Shown in pieces: positions 29,415 through 55,470 of a stretch of DNA of 55,470 bases. The stretch lies in assembly GCA_001567115.1 (NCBI GenBank), contig LMZT01000130.1:1-55470 (forward strand), given 5' to 3'. The DNA is from Candidatus Hinthialibacteria bacterium OLB16. GTDB lineage: Bacteria; Hinthialibacterota; Hinthialibacteria; OLB16. Position numbers and translations under genes: made by a program. Positions within the stretch are counted from its first letter, which is position 1. Every line of letters starts with the position of its first letter. Below the pieces are notes generated by a model that worked only from the letters and a program-made list of their open reading frames with translations, did no database searches and was not told the DNA's origin.

Positions 29415-30124
29415 TCAGGCCAGAAAAGGATCCTGCCGCTCGCGGGCACGCTTCGGGCTGAGAAAAGAAGAATACAGCCACATGCCTGCCAGAAAACCGC
29501 CGATATGCGCCCACCAGGCGATGCCACCCCCTTCAGAAGGCCCGAACAGCGAAGTCGCCCCGCTGAAGAACTGCAGCAGAAACCACATCAGGAGATAGAC
29601 GACCGCCGGGATCGGGATAAACAGGGGGAAGATCAGAATCGGGATCAGGGTAACCACCATCGCGTGTGGAAAGAGCAGGAAATAGGCCCCCATCACCCCC
29701 GCAATCGCCCCGGAGGCGCCAATGGCCGGATCGGTCGATCCCGGGTTGTCAGGGTGTGGCTGACCATGGCGATAACTCCGCAGAGAAGATAGAACAGGAG
29801 GAACCGAAAGGACCCCATGCGGTCCTCCACATTGTCACCGAATATCCACAGGGTCCACATGTTGCTGAGAATGTGGAGAAACCCGCCATGCAGGAACATG
29901 CTGGTCAGAAATGGCCAGTAGCCGAGAGCGTGGTAACCATGCAGCGCGGCGGTGGTGGGGTGTGTAAAAACGAACGGGACGACTCCAAAGAGATGAAAGA
30001 AGGCTTGAAGCTGGTGTTCGGGCAGCAGGATCTGGAAAATAAAAACCCCGATATTGGCAAAGATCAGAAGCCGTGTGACCACCGGCGGGTGACGGTTCGG
30101 GATGGTGTCTCGGATGGGGAACAC
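29415..30124 (-). CDS. Rhomboid family intramembrane serine protease (one frameshift)
   Basis: About 236 residues with six to seven hydrophobic helices. After GTG 30124 the first helix is VTRLLIFANIGVFIFQILL; FLTSMFLHGGFLHILSNMWT is the loop/helix 2 signature with the His and Asn of the oxyanion site. The catalytic Ser lies in GASGAIAGVMGAYF and the His in AHIGGFLAGMWLY. The frame breaks near 29742, where one missing base separates HTLT from PGSTDPAIGASG. All catalytic residues are present, so this is likely an active membrane protease. It starts a probable operon with yjbQ. Confidence 0.85.
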
Positions 30125-36585: not shown

Positions 36586-37553
36586 ATGGTTCCGGTCCTG
36601 TCGATTGTCATCCCCGCTTACAATGAAGAAGGCTGCCTGGCCGAGCTGCTCAACCGGCTGAAACCTGTTCTTGAAAGCCTGGGTGCTCCCTATGAAATCA
36701 TCTTCATCGATGATGGCAGCCGGGACAGAACCTACTCCCTGTTGTGTGAGCTGGCACAGAAATACCCTGAAATTGCCGCGGTTCGCCTGTCTCGCAACTT
36801 CGGCCATCAGGCGGCACTGACTGCCGGATTGACCCTGGCGCGAGGCCAGGCTGTCATTTCGATGGATGCCGATCTCCAGCATCCACCCGAATTGATCCCC
36901 CAGATGGTGGATTTGTGGAAACAGGGGAATCAGGTGGTCGCGACAATCCGGACCGAAACCCGTGATGCGGATGCCTCAAAAAAGCTGACTTCAACCCTTT
37001 TTATAAGCTTATAAACCTGCTGTCTCCCATGCCGATTATTCCGGGTGCCGCTGATTTTCGCCTGCTGGACCGTTGCGCAGTCGATGCCCTCAATTCCATG
37101 CCGGAGAAAACACGTTTCCTGCGTGGGCTGATCCCCTGGATCGGCTTCAAGCAAACCCAGATTCCCTTCAGTGCGCCTGAAAGATTCGCAGGAAAGAGCC
37201 AGTACAGCTATCGAAAGATGGTCAGTTTTGCCCTGAATGGGATCCTCTCCCTGTCGGCTTTCCCTCTCAGGCTGGCCTCGATCATTGGCCTTGGAGTCCT
37301 GTTCATTGGGGTGATTTATGGGATCTATGTGGTCTGGACCGCCCTGACAAATCCCCTCAGCCAGCCCGGCTGGGCATCGGTTATCCTGGTCCTGTTGTTG
37401 CTTGGCGGGATGCAGGTATTCGCGATTGGAATCGTCGGTGAGTATCTGGCGCGGGTTTTCGATGAAGTCAAAGCACGGCCGCTCTTTCTGATCGCTGAAA
37501 TAGTCAAAGGAAACAGGGATGAAACAGATCCTCCAGAATCTCAGAACCGGTGA
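36586..37553 (+). CDS. GT2 family glycosyltransferase with C-terminal membrane helices (one frameshift)
   Basis: About 322 residues, DPM1/GtrB-like: transfers a sugar to polyprenyl phosphate at the inner face of the membrane. The donor site is SIVIPAYNEEGCLAELL and FIDDGSRDRTY; the metal motif is VISMDADLQHPPEL. After FRLLDR and FAGKSQYSYRKM come two helices (SIIGLGVLFIGVIYGIYVV and VILVLLLLGGMQVFAIGIVG). The frame breaks near 37004: a five-T run needs six to give TLFYKLINLLSP. Its end overlaps the bi-domain dehydrogenase start by 35 bases. Confidence 0.88.
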
Positions 37554-41363: not shown

Positions 41364-43802
41364 ATGAAGGCACGCCATTTCCTGCAGTTGTTCGGAATCC
41401 TGTTCCTGATTCAGGATCCCATCCATGTCCAGGCGGAGGGAAGCATGAACAAGCTCTGGTATCGCAAGCCGGCAAGGGTCTGGGAGGAAGCATTGCCATT
41501 GGGAAATGGACGCCTGGGCGCCATGGTTTTTGGAGGCGGCACACACGATCGCCTTCAGCTCAATGAAGACACACTCTGGTCGGGGGAGCCGAAGGACTGG
41601 AACAACCCCGATGCACCCAACTGGCTGCCGAAGGTTCGGGAAGCCCTCTTCAATGGAGACTATGTCCTTGCCGACCGGCTCTCGAAAAATATGCAGGGGC
41701 CATACAACCAATCCTACCAGCCTCTTGGTGATCTCTCGATCGACTTCGACTCACCGTCAGAGCCGGCGGACTTGTATCGGGAGCTGGATCTTGAGTCGGG
41801 CGTTGCACTGACACGCTTCAATCTGGCTGGAGTGCAGATCGAACAGAAGGTTTTCATCAGCTTTCCAGACCAGGTTCTCGCAGTTCTTCTCACTGCAGAC
41901 AAACCGGGAGGTTTGTCTTTTTCCACACACATGACCTCGGATCTCCATCACCAGGTGATTTCAGAAGGGTCAAATACCCTCGCAATGCGTGGCAAAGCTC
42001 CGGCTCATGTGGAACCCGCATACAAGAAGGCGGAACCGTCGATTGTGTATGAAGATTCCCCGGAAGGGAGAGGGATGCGTTTCTCCGTTTTTTTGCGGGC
42101 GATCCCGCAGGGGGGGCATGTCAAAGTGGATCCTTCGGGGAAACTGATTCTCGAAAAGGCCGATTCAGTTTGTCTGCTGCTGGCTGCAGATACCAGCTTC
42201 AATGGATTTAACCGTTCTCCGAGCAGAGAAGGGGTCAATCCCGATATCGAGGCTCTGAAGTTTCTAGATCAGGCCACACACACATCCCCCGGTGAGCTGC
42301 TCAACAGGCATATCAATGACCATGCCTCGCTTTTTCGGAGGGTCACTCTCGATCTGGGACAGCCAGCGGATCATCTGCCGACCGATGAGAGGGTGCTGGC
42401 CTTTATGCAGGGGAACCAGGATCCAGGCCTGGCGGCATTGATTTTTCAATATGGGAGATACCTGCTCATGGCCAGCTCCAGGCCTGGAACCCAGCCGGCC
42501 AATCTGCAGGGAATCTGGAACCATGAGATTCGCCCCCCCCTGGTCCAGCAACTGGACCCTCAACATCAATGCCCAGATGAATTACTGGCCAGCAGAAAAC
42601 TGCAACCTGAGTGAGTGCCATCACCCAATGCTCGCATATATTGCCGAGCTTGCTGAGAACGGAAAGGAGACCGCCCGAGTCAATTACCAGCTGCCGGGGT
42701 GGGTGTCTCATCATAATGGGGATCTGTGGCGGCAGTCGGCTCCGGTGGGGAACTATGGGCAGGGCAGCCCGCAGTGGGCCATGTTCAACATGAGCGCCGC
42801 CTGGCTGTGCATGGATCTGTGGGAGCACTATGCCTTCAACCAGGATGAGGGCTTCCTGCGGAATGAGGCCTATCCGCTGATGAAAGGAGCCGCTGAATTC
42901 TGTCTGGCCTGGCTGATTCCCGGCCCGGATGGACACCTGGTGACCGCCCCTTCCACCTCCACTGAGAACAGTTTTTTCACTCCGGATGGCCAGGCCGCGC
43001 AGCTCAGCATTGCCTCGGCACAGGATATGGCATTAATCTGGGATTTGTTCACCAACTGCATTGAAGCCAGCCGAATTCTGGGTATCGATCAGGACTTTTC
43101 CGCGCAAGTCCAAAAAGCACGTGAAAAACTTTTCCCATACCAGGTTGGCTCCCAGGGCCAGCTCCAGGAGTGGTCGGTGGATTTCAAGGAACCCGAGCCT
43201 CACCATCGCCACATGTCTCACCTGATCGGTTTTTTCCTGGCAGCCAGATCACCCCGGAAAACGATCCGCGTCTGACTGATGCGGTTCGACGCTCCCTTGA
43301 GCTCCGCACCGATGACAGCACCGGCTGGTCCATGGCCTGGAAGCTGAACCTGTATGCACGCCTTATGGATGGGGATCATGCCCACAAGATGCTGGGTTAC
43401 CTGTTGCGGCTGGTGGACAGGAACGAGATCCGGTCCCATGGGGGCGGAGTCTATCCCAACCTGTTCGATGCCCATCCCCCTTTTCAGATCGATGGCAATT
43501 TCGGAGCCACTGCCGGCATCGCGGAAATGCTTCTGCAGTCACACCGTCGCACACCGGAGGGGGGGTACATTCTTGATCTCATTCCGGCATTGCCGGCCGC
43601 CTGGCCTGCTCTCAGAGTCACCGGATTGCGAGCGCGTGGGGGAGTCACAGTCGGCCTGACCTGCCGGGATGGGAAGCTGACAGAGGCCCAGCTCCTCTCA
43701 GACCGTGATGGAACCTTTACAGTTTCGATCAAAGGGCATCAGCAGCAGGTCACTCTGGTCAAAGGCATCCCGATGATAATCACCCCGAAGCCAGGCGGCT
43801 GA
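41364..43802 (+). CDS. Glycoside hydrolase family 95 (alpha-L-fucosidase-type), two frameshifts
   Basis: About 812 residues. A signal peptide (FLQLFGILFLIQDPIHVQA) indicates export. The N-terminal GH95 signature is KLWYRKPARVWEEALPLGNG followed by RLGAMVFGG and LNEDTLWSGEP. The catalytic (alpha/alpha)6 barrel has NIN-type QMNYWPAEN, the GDGSTGW-like DDSTGWSMAWKLN and IDGNFGATAGIAEMLLQSH. The frame breaks at 42532-42540 (eight C, seven expected, joining RPPWSSNWT) and near 43236 (six T, seven expected, joining FFPGSQITPEN). Removes fucose or galactose from plant or algal polysaccharide. Intact apart from these indels. Confidence 0.9.
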
Positions 43803-48949: not shown

Positions 48950-49149
48950 CCGAATTTCAGGGAAAGGTACGCCTTCAGGATGCTGTTCTGGCCAATATGG
49001 TCACCCTGTCAGCGATTCTGGAGTACCTCGATCAGATGCATCCGGGGGCTAAAGATATCATCGACCGCCGTGCGGTTGAAATCGCGCACAACCTCAAGGC
49101 CTCCCAGCCTTCTTTTTCAGATCAGGATGCGGATCATGGACAGGATTGA
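48946..49149 (+). CDS. Small conserved-looking protein of unknown function
   Basis: 67 residues. The ATG at 48946 overlaps the glycosylase stop (ATGA) and is preceded by CAGGAGAAAAG, so translation is well supported. The sequence is helical and amphipathic (RLQDAVLANMVTLSAILEYL then HPGAKDIIDRRAVEIAHNLK) with an acidic tail. No domain is recognised. Its end overlaps the M24-fold gene by 14 bases. Tight placement between a DNA glycosylase and a peptidase-fold gene suggests it is expressed with them. Confidence 0.65.
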   Translation: MTEFQGKVRLQDAVLANMVTLSAILEYLDQMHPGAKDIIDRRAVEIAHNLKASQPSFSDQDADHGQD

Positions 49150-50238
49150 GGAATTCCAAGCCAAGCGCCAACGGCTTCTGGGGCTGCTGGATCGCCACCA
49201 GCTGGCGGCTGTGGTGCTTACACGGCGCAGCAACTTCGCCTGGCTGACCTGTGGTGGGCAGAACTATGTGGGGACAGCGACTGAAATGGGTGTGGGCAGC
49301 CTGGTGGTTACTCATGATCAGGTCTGCCTGCTCTCAAGCAACATCGAGAATGCACGCCTGCTCGAAGAGGAGTGCCGGGACCTTCCACTGAAACCCATGG
49401 TCCTCGAATGGCCCACCGAAGGAGCCGGCAGAGAAAAAGCATTGCAGCAATTCCGCCTTAACGGTCCAGTCGGTGCCGATTCAGGAATCGCCGATATCGA
49501 TCTGAGCCGTGAGCTGATGCTTCAGCGTCGGCCTTTGCTATCCGGTGAAATCGCACGATATCGGTCCCTTGGCCGGGATGCCGGATCGGTCATGAACCGT
49601 GCAGCCCTGGCGCTCAGGCCCGGAATGAGCGAACTGGCAGCCGCTTCCCTCCTGGTTGGAGCGGCACTTGAAATGGGCATTGAAGCCACTGTGCGCCTGG
49701 TGGCTTTCGATGAACGCATCGACCGTTACCGGCATCCCATCCCGACATCGAAAACTCTAACCGGCCGCGCCTGCTGGTGCTCGGAGCACGGCGCCATGGC
49801 CTGATCACAAGCCTGTCACGCATGGTCAGCTTTGGAAAAGTTTCGAATGAACTCCGTCATAAACAGGAAGCGGTTTGCCGGGTTGATACTGTGCTGAACC
49901 TTGCCAGCACCCCAGGCACACCCCTTTCGGAGGTCCTGCAGCAGGGAATCGAGCAGTATGCGCTGGAAGGATTTTCTGATGAATGGCATCACCACCACCA
50001 GGGTGGCCTGACCGGTTATGAAGGACGGGATGTTCGAGCCACGCCGGATGCTCCGGATCTCATTCAAGCACCCGATGCAGTCGCCTGGAATCCAAGCATC
50101 ACCGGTGTCAAATCCGAGGATACTTTCCTGGTCAGAGATAAGGGTGTTGAAAATCTGACCCTGTCAGAGGACTGGCCACAGATTACCTCATCGACTTCTC
50201 TGGGAACTCTGGCGCGCCCGGATATTCTGGAAAGGTGA
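49136..50238 (+). CDS. M24 (pita-bread fold) peptidase-like protein, divergent metal site (one frameshift)
   Basis: About 367 residues from ATG 49136. The N-terminal domain shows NFAWLTCGGQNYVGTATEMG, typical of Xaa-Pro-type proteins. The frame breaks near 49765, after which ARRHGLITSLSRMVSFGKVS continues the fold. The later motifs are WHHHHQGGLTGYEGRD and AVAWNPSITGVKSEDTFLV. In standard M24 enzymes the latter is EPG...ED with Glu ligands; here the first Glu is Asn and the two upstream Asp ligands are not evident, so the dinuclear metal site may be lost, as in creatinase. Its 3' end overlaps the convergent kinase by 56 bases. Confidence 0.7.
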
Positions 50239-50947
50239 TGCGAAAAGTGGACCCTTTCCCGGGGTTGGACTCCACCTCGATGCCTGCTCCCATGCTCCTG
50301 GCCAATTGGCGGGTAATGAATAACCCCAGCCCTTTTCCCGGCCCCATGGACTGACCCGGGCTGCTGCCGCCGCGTTCAAAGAGATGCTCCAGCATTTCTG
50401 AAGGAATCCCGCAGCCGGTATCGGCAACCATCAGGCTCATCTGATTCTCATTCTTTTCGAGCACTATTCTGACATGTCCCGCTTCGGGTGTGTGGTTCAG
50501 GGCATTGGTGAGGAGGTTGTCCAGAATCCGGCCAACAGAACCTTGAGGCCCCCTGGCAAGGACAGGGAAAGGAGGATGAGAGGCCTCCAGCTGAATCCCT
50601 TTCATCAAAGCGGCCCCGGAAAAGCGATCCACTGCATCCAGTATCTCCCGGTTCAAATCGATCTCCGTGTCCTGCCCTCGTGGCGAGTGGATTCCCAGCC
50701 ATTCGAGCAGGTTGTCAGCCATCATCTGAAGCTGGGAGCAATTGCTTCTGATTGACTGAAGCGACTGTTCCTGAGGAGCACCCTGAATTTTTCGTTCCAG
50801 CAGAGCCACTGTTGTCAGGATTCGTGTCAGCAGAGATCGAGTGTCATGGTGGAAGTCTTCAAAAACTTCTTTCAGGGAGTCATCGATCCGCTGGCGGTCA
50901 CACAGCGGCCTGCTTTGATCTGAATCGGATTCAGGCGCCGCTACCAT
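50183..50947 (-). CDS. Histidine kinase without an evident sensor domain
   Basis: 254 residues from ATG 50947, which overlaps the SGNH stop (ATGGTAG). A short N-terminal leader is followed by a HisKA helix with FHHDTRSLLTRILTTVALLE (candidate phospho-His) and the ATPase core: N box RILDNLLTNALNHTPE, G1 VADTGCGIPSEMLEHL, F-type box FERGGSS and G2 GPGKGLGLFITRQLA. It is the last gene of a metabolic operon, without a linked response regulator. It may read the state of that pathway by an unknown route, or act with a distant regulator. Confidence 0.8.
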   Translation of the reverse strand: MVAAPESDSDQSRPLCDRQRIDDSLKEVFEDFHHDTRSLLTRILTTVALLERKIQGAPQEQSLQSIRSNCSQLQMMADNLLEWLGIHSPRGQDTEIDLNREILDAVDRFSGAALMKGIQLEASHPPFPVLARGPQGSVGRILDNLLTNALNHTPEAGHVRIVLEKNENQMSLMVADTGCGIPSEMLEHLFERGGSSPGQSMGPGKGLGLFITRQLARSMGAGIEVESNPGKGSTFRITFPEYPGAPEFPEKSMR

Positions 50948-51696
50948 GTTTTCGTAAAAGGATCGCCTACATGGGACCGGCTCTGTGTGGTGTCGGATGT
51001 CCACCGAGTAGGCAAATCCTCCTCGAAAATCTTCTCAGCCAGGCCGCTGGAGTGGCGTGCGATCGCTTCGAAAATTTTTTGGGCGATGATGAGATTTCCG
51101 AGGCGGTTGGCATGGACTCCATCATAGTGGATGAACCAGTCCGGTCCCGCCTCAGCCGACCAGACATCGGCCAGGATGCAGTCATATTCGGCTGCCAGGC
51201 CACGAATGCAGTCATTATAGCGAAGGGTGAGCTCCACACTGCCCTTGTCATAAGGGGGAAAGCTTTTCCATCCAGTCATGTAATACACGGTGGTCAGCAC
51301 AGTGACCGGAGCGCAGGCTTTACGGACTTCTTCAATAATCGTGGCCATGTCGGCGCGGAAGTCGCTCAGGGGCATTCCCGCACGCATGTCATTAAGCCCA
51401 TAGGCGAGGATGAACAGGTCTGGCTGGTTGTCGATGACATCTTTCCGGTATCGTTCCATGGCACTCGGCTTGCGTGAGTCGGCGTATCCCGGGCTGCGTG
51501 GGGAAATGGCATTTGCCCCAATGCCCTTATTGATAGACTCGATCGGTTCACCCTGGCATTCCGAGATAAGACGAGCCAGGATATCGGCATAACGGTCTTC
51601 AGTCTTCGGCAGCCAGGGTCCTCCCTCGACTGTGCTCTCTCCCAGAATGACCAGCCGTTTATAAGGGGTTTTCCGGTAATCCTTCGGATGTTCCAT
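50941..51696 (-). CDS. SGNH/GDSL-type hydrolase
   Basis: 251 residues from ATG 51696 (AAGGAGGAGG well placed). Block I is LVILGESTVEGGPW with Ser as nucleophile (GES in place of GDS), block III is LFILAYGLNDMRAG (Gly-x-Asn-Asp) and the C-terminal DWFIHYDGVHANRLGNLI gives the Asp-x-x-His pair. So the catalytic set is complete. No signal peptide is present, which points to an intracellular deacylase acting on a sugar ester, in keeping with the two dehydrogenases and epimerase upstream. Confidence 0.88.
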   Translation of the reverse strand: MEHPKDYRKTPYKRLVILGESTVEGGPWLPKTEDRYADILARLISECQGEPIESINKGIGANAISPRSPGYADSRKPSAMERYRKDVIDNQPDLFILAYGLNDMRAGMPLSDFRADMATIIEEVRKACAPVTVLTTVYYMTGWKSFPPYDKGSVELTLRYNDCIRGLAAEYDCILADVWSAEAGPDWFIHYDGVHANRLGNLIIAQKIFEAIARHSSGLAEKIFEEDLPTRWTSDTTQSRSHVGDPFTKTW

Positions 51697-51716: not shown

Positions 51717-52761
51717 TCAGGCTTGAGGGTGAACAACAATCTTCATTCCCTGGCGGGACTCCATGGCCTCGAAGGCTTCATGGATGCGCGACAGTGGGAA
51801 GTGATGTGTGATGATCGGTTCGGTCCGCACAGATCCATTTTCCAGCAGGCGGACAGCGATTTCATGGTGGCGCGGCACGCAGCCATGCGAGCCGGTCACA
51901 AAGCATTCCTTGTAATGAATTGTGTTGGAGAGCACGCTCATCGGGCGAGTTCCCTTGGGGAGTCCGCCGAACAGGTTGACATACCCGCGATGGGACACCA
52001 TCTCGATGGCCTGTTCATGTGCTTCGACCGATCCGGAGGTGGTCACGACAATATTGGGACCCTCTCCACCGGTTTCCTCCCGGCAGCGCTGGACCACATC
52101 CTCATCTTCGGTGCAGATATACACATCCGCATTATAGGCTTTGGCGATTTCGAGGCGTTTTGCGGCTGCGTTGAATGGCGATGACCTTGACTGCCCCCAT
52201 CACCCGCGCCAGGTCGATCATCATGCAGCCGATCGGCCCAAGCCCCATGATGGCCACTGTCCTGCCGATGGACATGTTCACAATCTCGAGGCCATTGATG
52301 GCGCACCCCAGGGGTTCCGCCAGCGAGGCGGTATCAAAGGTGATCTTATCCGAAAAGGGGGTGACAGGCCCTTCCTCAAGCAGCAGGCGGGGCAGTTTCA
52401 TGTACTGGGCGAAGGCGCCCGGGATCTGATAACCCACCGCATAATTGATCGCGCAGTTATTGCCATATCCATTCCGGCACCACCAGCATTGGCCACACGG
52501 AACATCCGCACCAATCGCCACACGGTCTCCCTCCTTCACCCGGGTGACATTCTCCCCCACCTTGACCACCACACCGCTGGTTTCATGCCCGATTATCGCT
52601 GGTGGAACCACGCGCGGATTGCCATGGCGAAATATGCGGATATCGGATCCGCACACAGAAACCGATTCGACCCGCAACAAGGCGGAGTCTGCATCGATCT
52701 CCGGAGTGGGGAGCTCTTTGAGGGTCAACTGGTTGAGGTCTTCAAGAACAGCAGCAAGCAT
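51717..52761 (-). CDS. Zinc-dependent alcohol (polyol) dehydrogenase, sorbitol-dehydrogenase-like (one frameshift)
   Basis: About 347 residues of the medium-chain dehydrogenase family. Catalytic zinc ligands are the Cys in SVCGSDIRIF and the His-Glu of IIGHETSGVV; the structural zinc is held by ADVPCGQCWWCRNGYGNNC. The cofactor loop is AIMGLGPIGCMM. The frame changes near 52175, where one base too many interrupts VIAI...AAKRLEIAKAYNADVY. Starts at ATG 52761 with GGAAAGG before it. Oxidises a polyol or sugar hydroxyl with NAD(P). It is 19 bases after the second dehydrogenase and in the same operon. Confidence 0.88.
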
Positions 52762-52780: not shown

Positions 52781-53840
52781 TTAATTTGTTTGATCGGGAG
52801 TTATGAGAACCTTTGAAAAAAATTCTGTGCGATCTCGCATCATGGAAAATGCCCCGGCTCCCGCATTCAGTGCGATTCGATGAGTAACAAGTTTCGAGAG
52901 ATGGATCCGATGTGAGGCCAGCGCTTCGAGAACATCGCTCCAGTCATTCCGGTTGCCGGTGTGGCTGTATTCGGAGTTCCAGGTCCCGCAGATGCGGACC
53001 TCGCGTCGCATCACCTGTGAAATCAGTTCCATCGGAAGAGTGACATCCCCGGATGGATTTCCGAGCAGGACCACCCTCCCGCCGCGGGCAGCCGCAGCGA
53101 GGGCCTGAAGGGTTGTGGGAGGACATCCAGCCGCCTCGATTGCCAGATCGACTCCGCGTTTGCCAGTGAGGTGGTTGAGAACCGACAGAGGATCCTCCAT
53201 GCGAGAGTCAAAGACATGCTCAAATCCCAGATCATGCGCCAGGGCCAGCTTTTCCGGAATGATATCGAATAAAATGATCTGCGAAGCTCCCAGGGCACGC
53301 GCCCACTGGGCTGCCATCACCCCGATCGGCCCGGCGCCGAAAATCGCCACACTCTCCCCGATGCCGGTCCCACCTCCACAACGCACCGCATGAAGCGCCA
53401 CTGCCGCCGGTTCGGTCATCGAAGCCTCTTCGAGAGACACCCCCGGCGGGAATCTTCAGAAGGTTTCTCTCCGGGGCGATGACATATTCTGCAAACCCCC
53501 CATCGCTGCGTGAACCGAGGTAATCATAATCATGGCACATGACATACTTTCCCTGCTCGCAGGCAGCGCATCTTCCGCACCACAGCAAAGGAAAGACAGC
53601 CACCGGATCGCCAACCTGAAAACGGGTGACTCCCTCGCCCAGTTCTTCCACCACTCCGGCAAATTCATGCCCTGGTATGGTTGGAAAGCGATAGGTTCCT
53701 TTGACAAACACCCTCGGGATATCGGATCCGCACACCCCGCAGAAGGCGATCCGAACCTTCACTTCACCCCAAGCAGGGCCGGGCTGAGGAACCTCCTCGT
53801 ATCGCAGATCGCCAACTGAATGCAGCACCAGCGCGTGCAT
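52781..53840 (-). CDS. Zinc-dependent dehydrogenase, galactitol-1-phosphate 5-dehydrogenase-like (one frameshift)
   Basis: About 352 residues from ATG 53840 (GAGGGG five bases before); an in-frame ATG at 53861 overlaps the upstream stop. Catalytic zinc: FCGVCGSDIPRVF and TIPGHEFAGVVEELGEG; structural zinc: WCGRCAACEQGKYVMC. The cofactor loop is VAIFGAGPIGVMAAQW. The frame breaks at a five-G run near 53446 (four would join LLKIPAGVSLEEASMTEPAA). GatD/TdH-like in order and length. It probably oxidises a phosphorylated or free polyol passed to the neighbouring isomerase/epimerase; the exact substrate is not deducible. Confidence 0.87.
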
Positions 53841-53857
53841 CCGATCCCCTCGATTTT

Positions 53858-55470
53858 TCATGACCGATCCGCCATGCCCTTTCCCGCGGGTTTGAGCCCC
53901 AATTGAATGGAATCAAGCGTCTTAAGGTAATTTTCCCTGAGTGACCCCTCAGGATGGAAGAGGCTGCTGGTCCCCGCAACAAGGATGTCGGCGCCAGATG
54001 CCACCATGCGGGGGATATTTTCGAAACTCACATTCCCATCCACCTCGATGGGAATCCTGCGGTTTTTTTCATCCAGATATTTTCGGCAGGCCTCGATCTT
54101 GCCGAGTGCGGAAGCCACCAGCTTCTGCCCGGCATACCCCGGGTTGACTGTCATCAGCAGGATAAAATCGAGCTTATCCAGGACATAATCCATAACCGAC
54201 AGCGGGGTTGCAGGATTGAGCGCCAGGCCGGCCAGGATGCCCTGCTCACGGATCAGGCTGAGTGTACGATCGAGGTGAATGGAGGACTCCGCATGAACTG
54301 AAATCATCTGCACCCCGATTGCCGCCACTTCTCGAATGAAGAAGTCATTGTTTTCAACCATCAGGTGAACATCGAATGGGAGGCTTGTTTTGGGGCGCAG
54401 CTGCCTCAGGGTTTCCAGGCCCAGGGGCATGTTTGGAACAAAGTGGGCATCCATGATGTCCATGTGCAGCAGGTCGATTCCGAGTTTTTCCAGCCTGCGA
54501 GCCGATTCCTCGAGGTGGCACAGGTCGGCACACATGATTGATGGAGCGATACAAATCCTCCTGCCGGCTCCATCAGTCGGAGTTATTTCCACTGGGAGCG
54601 GTCGAACCATTTCGGCCGACACGGGGCCACGGGAGACAAAAACCCCTTTCAGGTACTGTAAGGAGTCACGCAGTTCGCCTTCGAGATGCTCATCGGTATA
54701 ATCCCTCCCTGTTTTTGGACCGCCGATCTCCAGGTAACCCACAAGTTCGGAAACCGGCAGCTGGCCGGCATGGGCATACAGGCAATCGACCACCTTTGGA
54801 ATATCGACAATGCCTCTGGCACGCTGTCCTTCCGAAAATCCGAAGGTTGAGTTGAAGAGGGCATCGGTGTTTTTCAGGTGGAGTTCGGTGGTGAACGGCA
54901 GGGCAGCCTCGAGCAGCTGCATGTTGTCCCACACGACCCTCTTTTCCCGATCGGCATAACCATGCGCCACATCGACACAATAACCGATCGAGCTGGTTGT
55001 TTCCGGATGTTCCTGATGATAAGCGAGCAGTTCTTCCGCCATATCGCTCATCTCATCGGGCAGAGTGGGGGGTTCGGCCAGGCAGGACATCGGCTCGATG
55101 CCCAGGACCGGCACCCCCTTCGAATGGGCGAAGCGCATCAGGGCTTTCATGTGGTCGATGTAGCACCGTATGCCCTGGTTCTTCAGGCCCATCCGATCTC
55201 TCAGGACCGCTCCGGGATTGGAGCCAACCGATCTGGCTCCAACCAGGCCGCCCACCTCGATCAGGCGTTCGAAGTTCCGGCGGGCCACATCGACAAAGCC
55301 GGCTTCGGGCCTGAAGAATCCTCCGAGTTCGCGATGTGCGGTGAAGAGGCTCGATATTGAAATGTCGAAATGGTCCGCCTCATGCCTCAGTTGTTTGAAG
55401 AAATCATCCGGCAGCTGGTAAATTTCGAAAAATGTTCCCAGCTGGACATGATGGATTCCTTCTTCAGCGA
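53858..55470 (-). CDS. Fusion of sugar-phosphate isomerase-type TIM barrel and ribulose-phosphate 3-epimerase, 5' partial
   Basis: At least 536 residues; the frame stays open to the window edge, beyond the GTG at 55288. The first part (about residues 1-305 as visible) is a xylose-isomerase-like (AP endonuclease 2) TIM barrel: VLGIEPMSCL, IGYCVDVAHGYAD, TELHLKNTDALF and VGYLEIGGP, with Glu/Asp/His residues placed as metal ligands. The second is a complete pentulose-phosphate epimerase: IAPSIMCADLCHLEESARRL, LLHMDIMDAHFVPNMPLG, DVHLMVENND, LLMTVNPGYAGQKLV and EVDGNVSFENIPRMVASGAD, with both catalytic Asp residues and the metal His residues. It likely interconverts a ketose-phosphate in the operon's pathway. 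Confidence 0.88.
   Translation of the reverse strand, partial: AEEGIHHVQLGTFFEIYQLPDDFFKQLRHEADHFDISISSLFTAHRELGGFFRPEAGFVDVARRNFERLIEVGGLVGARSVGSNPGAVLRDRMGLKNQGIRCYIDHMKALMRFAHSKGVPVLGIEPMSCLAEPPTLPDEMSDMAEELLAYHQEHPETTSSIGYCVDVAHGYADREKRVVWDNMQLLEAALPFTTELHLKNTDALFNSTFGFSEGQRARGIVDIPKVVDCLYAHAGQLPVSELVGYLEIGGPKTGRDYTDEHLEGELRDSLQYLKGVFVSRGPVSAEMVRPLPVEITPTDGAGRRICIAPSIMCADLCHLEESARRLEKLGIDLLHMDIMDAHFVPNMPLGLETLRQLRPKTSLPFDVHLMVENNDFFIREVAAIGVQMISVHAESSIHLDRTLSLIREQGILAGLALNPATPLSVMDYVLDKLDFILLMTVNPGYAGQKLVASALGKIEACRKYLDEKNRRIPIEVDGNVSFENIPRMVASGADILVAGTSSLFHPEGSLRENYLKTLDSIQLGLKPAGKGMADRS

Follow-up and report, generated by a model that had tools for sequence, protein, structure and literature searches.

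A gene joining a xylose-isomerase-like barrel to a ribulose-phosphate 3-epimerase-type barrel, with two linked dehydrogenases, in several bacterial phyla

The window, the 55,470-nucleotide stretch of DNA analyzed here, carries at its right end a reading frame that the original prediction described as two different TIM barrels fused to each other. This raises the questions of whether the two enzymes are genuinely joined in one protein and which pathway such a protein could serve.

The fused gene and its occurrence

The window spans an entire contig (G000:C130), part of a metagenome-type assembly of 4.05 Mb in 181 contigs that is estimated to be 92.6% complete. Since the contig ends here, the fused open reading frame (53858-55468, minus strand, 536 amino acids) is open at its 5' end. 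The gene (53858..55470) retains 536 codons with the stop at 53858-53860, and full-length homologues have their start some 27-30 residues beyond the contig edge, so that about 27 residues are missing from the N-terminus of the window copy. Within this one frame, a xylose-isomerase-like barrel of the PF01261 superfamily (N barrel; residues 1-277, 54638..55468, minus strand) is followed by a linker (54557..54637, minus strand) and a barrel of the ribulose-phosphate 3-epimerase (RPE) family, PF00834 (C barrel; residues 305-525, 53894..54556, minus strand). The fusion of two different TIM barrels was thus borne out by the PF00834 match, by PF01261 matches of homologues of the N half and by the predicted fold.

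The original prediction had proposed a search for the same domain order in other genomes, and an uninterrupted N+C frame was indeed found in 10 further assemblies, giving 11 carriers in total (the window, L005, L023, L024, L025, L026, L027, L028, L121, L122, and L123). The fused homologues are 52-68% identical to the window protein or to L005. Within the same phylum, five genomes besides that of the window carry the fusion (G001, G002, G008, G012, G013). Outside it, the fusion was detected in L024, labeled Planctomycetota, and in L028, a Verrucomicrobiia record, through whose phylum (Verrucomicrobiota) the three fusion genomes L121, L122, and L123 were reached. Six of 14 genomes of the window's own phylum were positive and, wherever the N barrel occurred in them, it was fused to the C barrel, so that the refuting case of separate genes in all relatives does not hold. 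In a wide draw of 386 genomes, a strong match to any part was obtained in only 8, and 6 of these were fusions. A plasmid collection yielded matches only to separate rpe-type genes, none over 80% of the query.

Neither the sequence nor the length of the linker is constant among genomes. In the genus represented by L025-L027, an interspersed DNA repeat forms part of the linker while the frame is kept (L025 8829-8939; L026 1929-2021; L027 5348-5503), and these loci hold further copies of the repeat elsewhere (L027 9211-9243 and 11746-11780; L025 9644-9681). In a tree of the concatenated N and C barrels, a single clade of fused genes was neither rejected (p-AU 0.351) nor resolved.

An artefact of assembly or sequencing that joined two adjoining genes has practically no probability left: although several genes on the contig, both dehydrogenases included, are split by frame changes and Chloroflexota relatives carry N and C as two adjacent genes, the same fusion with unrelated linkers, its frame uninterrupted across both barrels, recurs in 10 other independent assemblies, which rules out an origin by an assembly indel and makes it neither chance nor an assembly slip. 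We therefore regard the fusion as genuine; it joins two known enzyme kinds across several phyla and is undescribed as far as the literature searched shows. The statement that such a bifunctional enzyme had not been described agrees with our search, since no description was found in the open-access papers searched, which is a weak negative limited to open access.

Family and metal sites of the two barrels

The N half of the window protein alone (the first 280 or so residues) gave no Pfam match, and PF01261 was matched by 7 of 10 homologues (best E 1.4e-14). Structure prediction had also been suggested at the outset, and AF2 models the N half of L005 as a barrel (pLDDT 86.8, pTM 0.88) with Z scores of 24-28 to the xylose-isomerase-like superfamily. 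In the full-length model of the L005 homologue, the pTM of 0.61 concerns the placement of the barrels relative to each other, and the linker is disordered (residues 312-332, pLDDT <50). The best fold match of the N barrel was 3qxb (Z 28.4), ahead of EryC (4k3z, Z 25.6), followed by Art22 and UlaE (3cqi, Z 24.2) and by the D-psicose/D-tagatose 3-epimerases at Z about 24, where rows less than 1 Z apart count as ties. Foldseek was concordant on the top two, and searching the PDB sequences with a profile of N returned 3qxb as the sole match (E 0.014). Identity to characterized enzymes is only 10-19%; all values being below 20%, the substrate of the N barrel cannot be read off from them, and the 18-19% shared with EryC is no close sequence relationship.

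A Glu-Asp-His-Glu set at the C-terminal ends of the strands is the metal-site arrangement of ketose 3-epimerases. The N barrel appears to keep this site, with Glu125 (E155 in L005; 55094..55096), Asp166 (D196; 54971..54973), His197 (H227; 54878..54880), and Glu247 (E277; 54728..54730), all encoded on the minus strand, as its predicted metal ligands. Each of the four is invariant in 15/15 N sequences, and in the L005 N-half model they are located at or near barrel strand ends. Since EryC and UlaE are phosphate-sugar enzymes, phosphorylated ketoses would be at least as likely substrates of the N barrel as free ketoses. With these two among the nearest folds, the original view of a substrate among the free ketoses or the sugar acids is not the one to prefer.

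In the C barrel, residues 307-500 of the window protein match PF00834 with E 1.4e-67 (227 bits against a cut-off of 21.1), the NCBIfam rpe equivalog TIGR01163 is passed with 230.4 bits (cut-off 212.6), and RPE structures match at a target TM of 0.9. The metal and catalytic residues described for RPE (PMC9978339) are matched by His365, Asp367, His398, and Asp507 in L005 numbering, all invariant in 17/17 C sequences, which confirms the original claim that the catalytic and metal residues are kept. In the window, they lie in His335-x-Asp337 (metal ligands and catalytic Asp; 54458..54466), in the metal ligand His368 (54365..54367), and in Asp477-Gly-Asn479 (54032..54040), which holds the catalytic/metal Asp and an Asn typical of the subfamily, all on the minus strand. 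Ser340, Met369, and Met400 (L005 numbering) are likewise invariant in the 17 sequences, and the third Met of the barrel is replaced by Leu in L025 and L027.

Asn509 of L005, which follows Asp507-Gly, gives the motif VDGN in 17/17 C sequences, whereas the separate rpe genes in the sampled genomes, that of the window genome (at C66) included, have DGG, and one (L010) has DGC. The C barrel thus does not carry the VDGG signature of ordinary Rpe, a trait of the ordinary rpe genes in this comparison and not of all PF00834 members. In a tree, which is rough owing to the badly trimmed row L097, the C group stands apart from ordinary rpe (support 96/87).

Gene neighborhoods and separate halves

Downstream of the fusion, two zinc medium-chain dehydrogenases are encoded on the same minus strand: DH1 (52781..53861) and the Tdh/IolM-like DH2 (51717..52761). 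The fusion and DH1 share an ATGA overlap (53858-53861), an arrangement that speaks for an operon. The predicted operon with two polyol-type dehydrogenases is therefore upheld by gene order and overlap, although both dehydrogenases are broken in the window assembly, DH1 near 53440 at a GGGGG run and DH2 near 52160 at an AAAA run. Both are intact in relatives. Since other genes on the contig also look split (rhomboid-like, 29415-30082; glycosyltransferase-like, 36586-37553; GH95-like, 41364-43802; peptidase-like, 49127-50238), the two breaks, each at a homopolymer, are likely sequencing or assembly errors, and the split genes suggest frequent one-base indels in this assembly. Directly downstream of DH2 lies a GDSL-type hydrolase gene (50941..51696, minus strand), whose membership in the module is doubtful because the relatives examined show none next to the module.

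The nearest solved structure to DH1 of the relatives is the galactitol-1-phosphate 5-dehydrogenase GatD (4a2c, E 2.8e-65). The GatD model NF007642 nevertheless does not give DH1 that name, as the L005 protein reaches 268.5 bits with it, well below the cut-off of 550. Homologues of DH1 at E 1e-60 were found in 14 of the 17 genomes searched, all of them N or C carriers; none was found at this threshold in G008, G012, and G013, which carry the fusion and belong to the genus of L025-L027. Some module clusters also hold an adjoining pair of a long dehydrogenase, judged by eye to resemble L-sorbose-1-phosphate reductase, and a sorbitol-6-phosphate-dehydrogenase-like short-chain dehydrogenase (SDR) (L131 13456-15356; L133 66-2679; L122 9425-11991; only the SDR of L131 was checked by model). 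URO-D/MtaA-like genes were seen around the module in Chloroflexota and in one Verrucomicrobiota genome (L030, L031, L132, L134, L135), with only L030 11839-12996 checked by model.

Other genomes carry the halves apart. Two Chloroflexota loci, L030 and L031, have adjacent N and C genes that overlap by ATGA, and in two Verrucomicrobiota genomes (L124, L125) N is clustered with a divergent C. In G062, N and C are on different contigs, and C-DH1-DH2 is followed by genes for a DeoR regulator and a sugar ABC transporter. Poribacteria have C alone with the two dehydrogenases behind it, the order C-DH1-DH2 being conserved across loci, and the N barrel was not found in the 2 Poribacteria genomes searched. 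In G984, conversely, N adjoins a gene for a short-chain dehydrogenase, and the search for C gave no match at the threshold used. Since Poribacteria have C but no N, and G984 has N but gave no C match, the two activities do not have to follow one another, and the proposed succession of isomerization steps is conjectural.

Two details of the separate halves were also noted. A lone N barrel in a 1.9-Mb genome overlaps an upstream short-chain dehydrogenase gene (L172 9357-11056). In Poribacteria (L034, L040, and about 30 other loci), C-DH1-DH2 continues into genes named by eye as adenine phosphoribosyltransferase-like, SecD-like, and SecF-like, and a Gfo/Idh/MocA-like oxidoreductase gene often lies just upstream.

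Proposed function and relation to known enzymes

The fused protein is probably a bifunctional enzyme in which two tethered metal-dependent epimerases serve one sugar or polyol catabolic route. This reading builds on the fusion in 11 assemblies, on residue conservation, on the predicted folds, and on gene neighborhoods, from which we infer both epimerase activities, phosphorylated substrates, and the direction of flow. The N barrel, similar to EryC, UlaE, and D-tagatose 3-epimerase, would most likely invert the carbon beside the carbonyl in a ketose that is probably phosphorylated, while the RPE-like C barrel would most likely invert C3 of a D-ketose 5- or 6-phosphate. The product of the latter would be a central metabolite, either D-xylulose-5-phosphate or, if the barrel resembles allulose-6-phosphate epimerase, D-fructose-6-phosphate. 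DH1 and DH2 most likely interconvert ketoses and polyols or their phosphates. Points against this reading are the three fused genomes without a close DH1 homologue, the low identity of N to characterized enzymes, and the low score of DH1 with the GatD model. Since no kinase gene was seen adjoining the fusion in the fused genomes, phosphorylated substrates are proposed on the basis of family resemblance.

An undescribed route that leads from an L-ketose or its phosphate, with a polyol phosphate as intermediate, to the phosphate of a D-pentulose or D-hexulose can be drawn up from these four proteins, although in this particular form it is doubtful. An L-ketose-1-phosphate, of the type made by RhaA and RhaB, would be epimerized by the N barrel; one dehydrogenase would reduce the product to a polyol phosphate, which DH1 would re-oxidize at the other end to a D-ketose 5- or 6-phosphate, the putative substrate of the C barrel. 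N and C would then bracket the redox pair instead of catalyzing consecutive steps. The stereochemical outline would fit, for example, L-ribulose-1-phosphate to ribitol phosphate, D-ribulose-5-phosphate, and D-xylulose-5-phosphate. The pair of L-sorbose-1-phosphate reductase and sorbitol-6-phosphate dehydrogenase follows the same logic without epimerases.

It is possible, if somewhat unlikely, that the N barrel acts on a free ketose in the manner of D-tagatose, D-allulose, or L-ribulose 3-epimerases and the C barrel later on the phosphate made by a kinase with a gene located elsewhere, the fusion then only co-regulating two non-consecutive steps. The folds of D-psicose/D-tagatose 3-epimerases match the N barrel nearly as well as those of EryC and UlaE (Z 24 versus 24-26), rhamnulokinase-like kinases are located elsewhere in G000 and G002, and no C match accompanies N in G984, just as N and C lie far apart in G062. 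Against this, the top sequence and fold matches are 3qxb and EryC, and the substrate of EryC is a phosphate.

The breakdown of a 6-deoxy sugar, L-rhamnose or L-fucose, by a new branch appears improbable. It is suggested by two Chloroflexota genomes (G063, G064) in which N-C-DH1-DH2 lies inside L-rhamnose-type clusters with L-rhamnose mutarotase (rhaM), rhaA or rhaI, a rhamnulokinase-like kinase, and a class II aldolase, by two Verrucomicrobiota genomes (L124, L125) with rhaA about 30 bases from N, and by GH95-type and pectin-lyase-like genes in the window. Those Chloroflexota clusters already have canonical rhaA or rhaI and kinase genes, however, rhaA was not found in 5 of the 6 fused genomes of the window's phylum, and the RPE-type site expects a terminal phosphate, which a 6-deoxyhexulose cannot carry at C6. 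The presence of rhaA in all 6 N carriers of Verrucomicrobiota was dropped as proof of a role in rhamnose use, given its base rate of 169/288 (59%) in the sample of that phylum (0.59^6 = 0.04). A function of N as a substitute for L-rhamnose isomerase was likewise rejected, since it is not needed where N occurs beside rhaI (G064) or rhaA (G063). The G063 cluster also contains a strong sorbitol-6-phosphate-dehydrogenase homologue, checked by model.

It is likewise improbable that one barrel is only a structural or regulatory partner, C being an ordinary RPE and N catalytically dead, or the reverse. Other enzyme families do include fused proteins of which one half is dead, and the C barrel scores over the RPE equivalog cut-off. 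Yet none of the four N ligands, and none of the metal and catalytic residues of C, varies across phyla, whether the barrels are fused or separate.

For two tethered epimerases, the covalent link is itself good evidence of service in one pathway. In several phyla represented chiefly by metagenome data, it couples the N barrel to a barrel of RPE type, to which gene order adds the two dehydrogenases, and these four proteins form a small, testable set for a sugar or sugar-alcohol pathway. The VDGN subfamily is thereby split off from what annotation calls ordinary ribulose-phosphate 3-epimerase, and the module points to an undescribed route of sugar or sugar-alcohol breakdown. Should the linked route be confirmed, its first and last enzymes would be covalently joined in several phyla, which would raise the interest of the module.

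Among known systems, the closest to the N barrel in both fold and profile is the putative xylose isomerase 3qxb of Rhodospirillum rubrum, at only 17% identity. Brucella EryC has a similar fold over 292 residues (Foldseek E 1.4e-12) and also belongs to a polyol-phosphate pathway, but it is a single-domain protein from an erythritol operon with a kinase, and at 18-19% identity the likeness is one of fold only. Its structure 4k3z was deposited as a D-erythrulose 4-phosphate dehydrogenase, and EryC is a tetrulose-4-phosphate racemase (PMC11508834, PMC5992420). E. coli UlaE, an L-xylulose-5-phosphate 3-epimerase crystallized with Zn and with sulfate (3cqi/3cqj), shares the fold as well, but is a separate protein of the ascorbate pathway with 12-13% identity to N. 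The C barrel shares with Rpe the TIGR01163 match, the His-Asp-His-Asp set, and the Met positions, and differs from it by Asn in place of Gly, by its own branch, by being fused or linked to dehydrogenases, and by residing in a genome with another rpe. D-allulose-6-phosphate 3-epimerase (AlsE, 3ct7) has the same fold and 37% identity to the C barrel, which scores 186 bits against the AlsE model, below its cut-off of 271. The nearest parallel to the fusion as a whole is RhaEW, a bifunctional rhamnulose-1-phosphate aldolase/lactaldehyde dehydrogenase (PMC3870299), which likewise unites two catabolic steps in a single polypeptide and is encoded in sugar clusters of Chloroflexi and other groups, although its domains and reactions are unrelated to those of the fusion.
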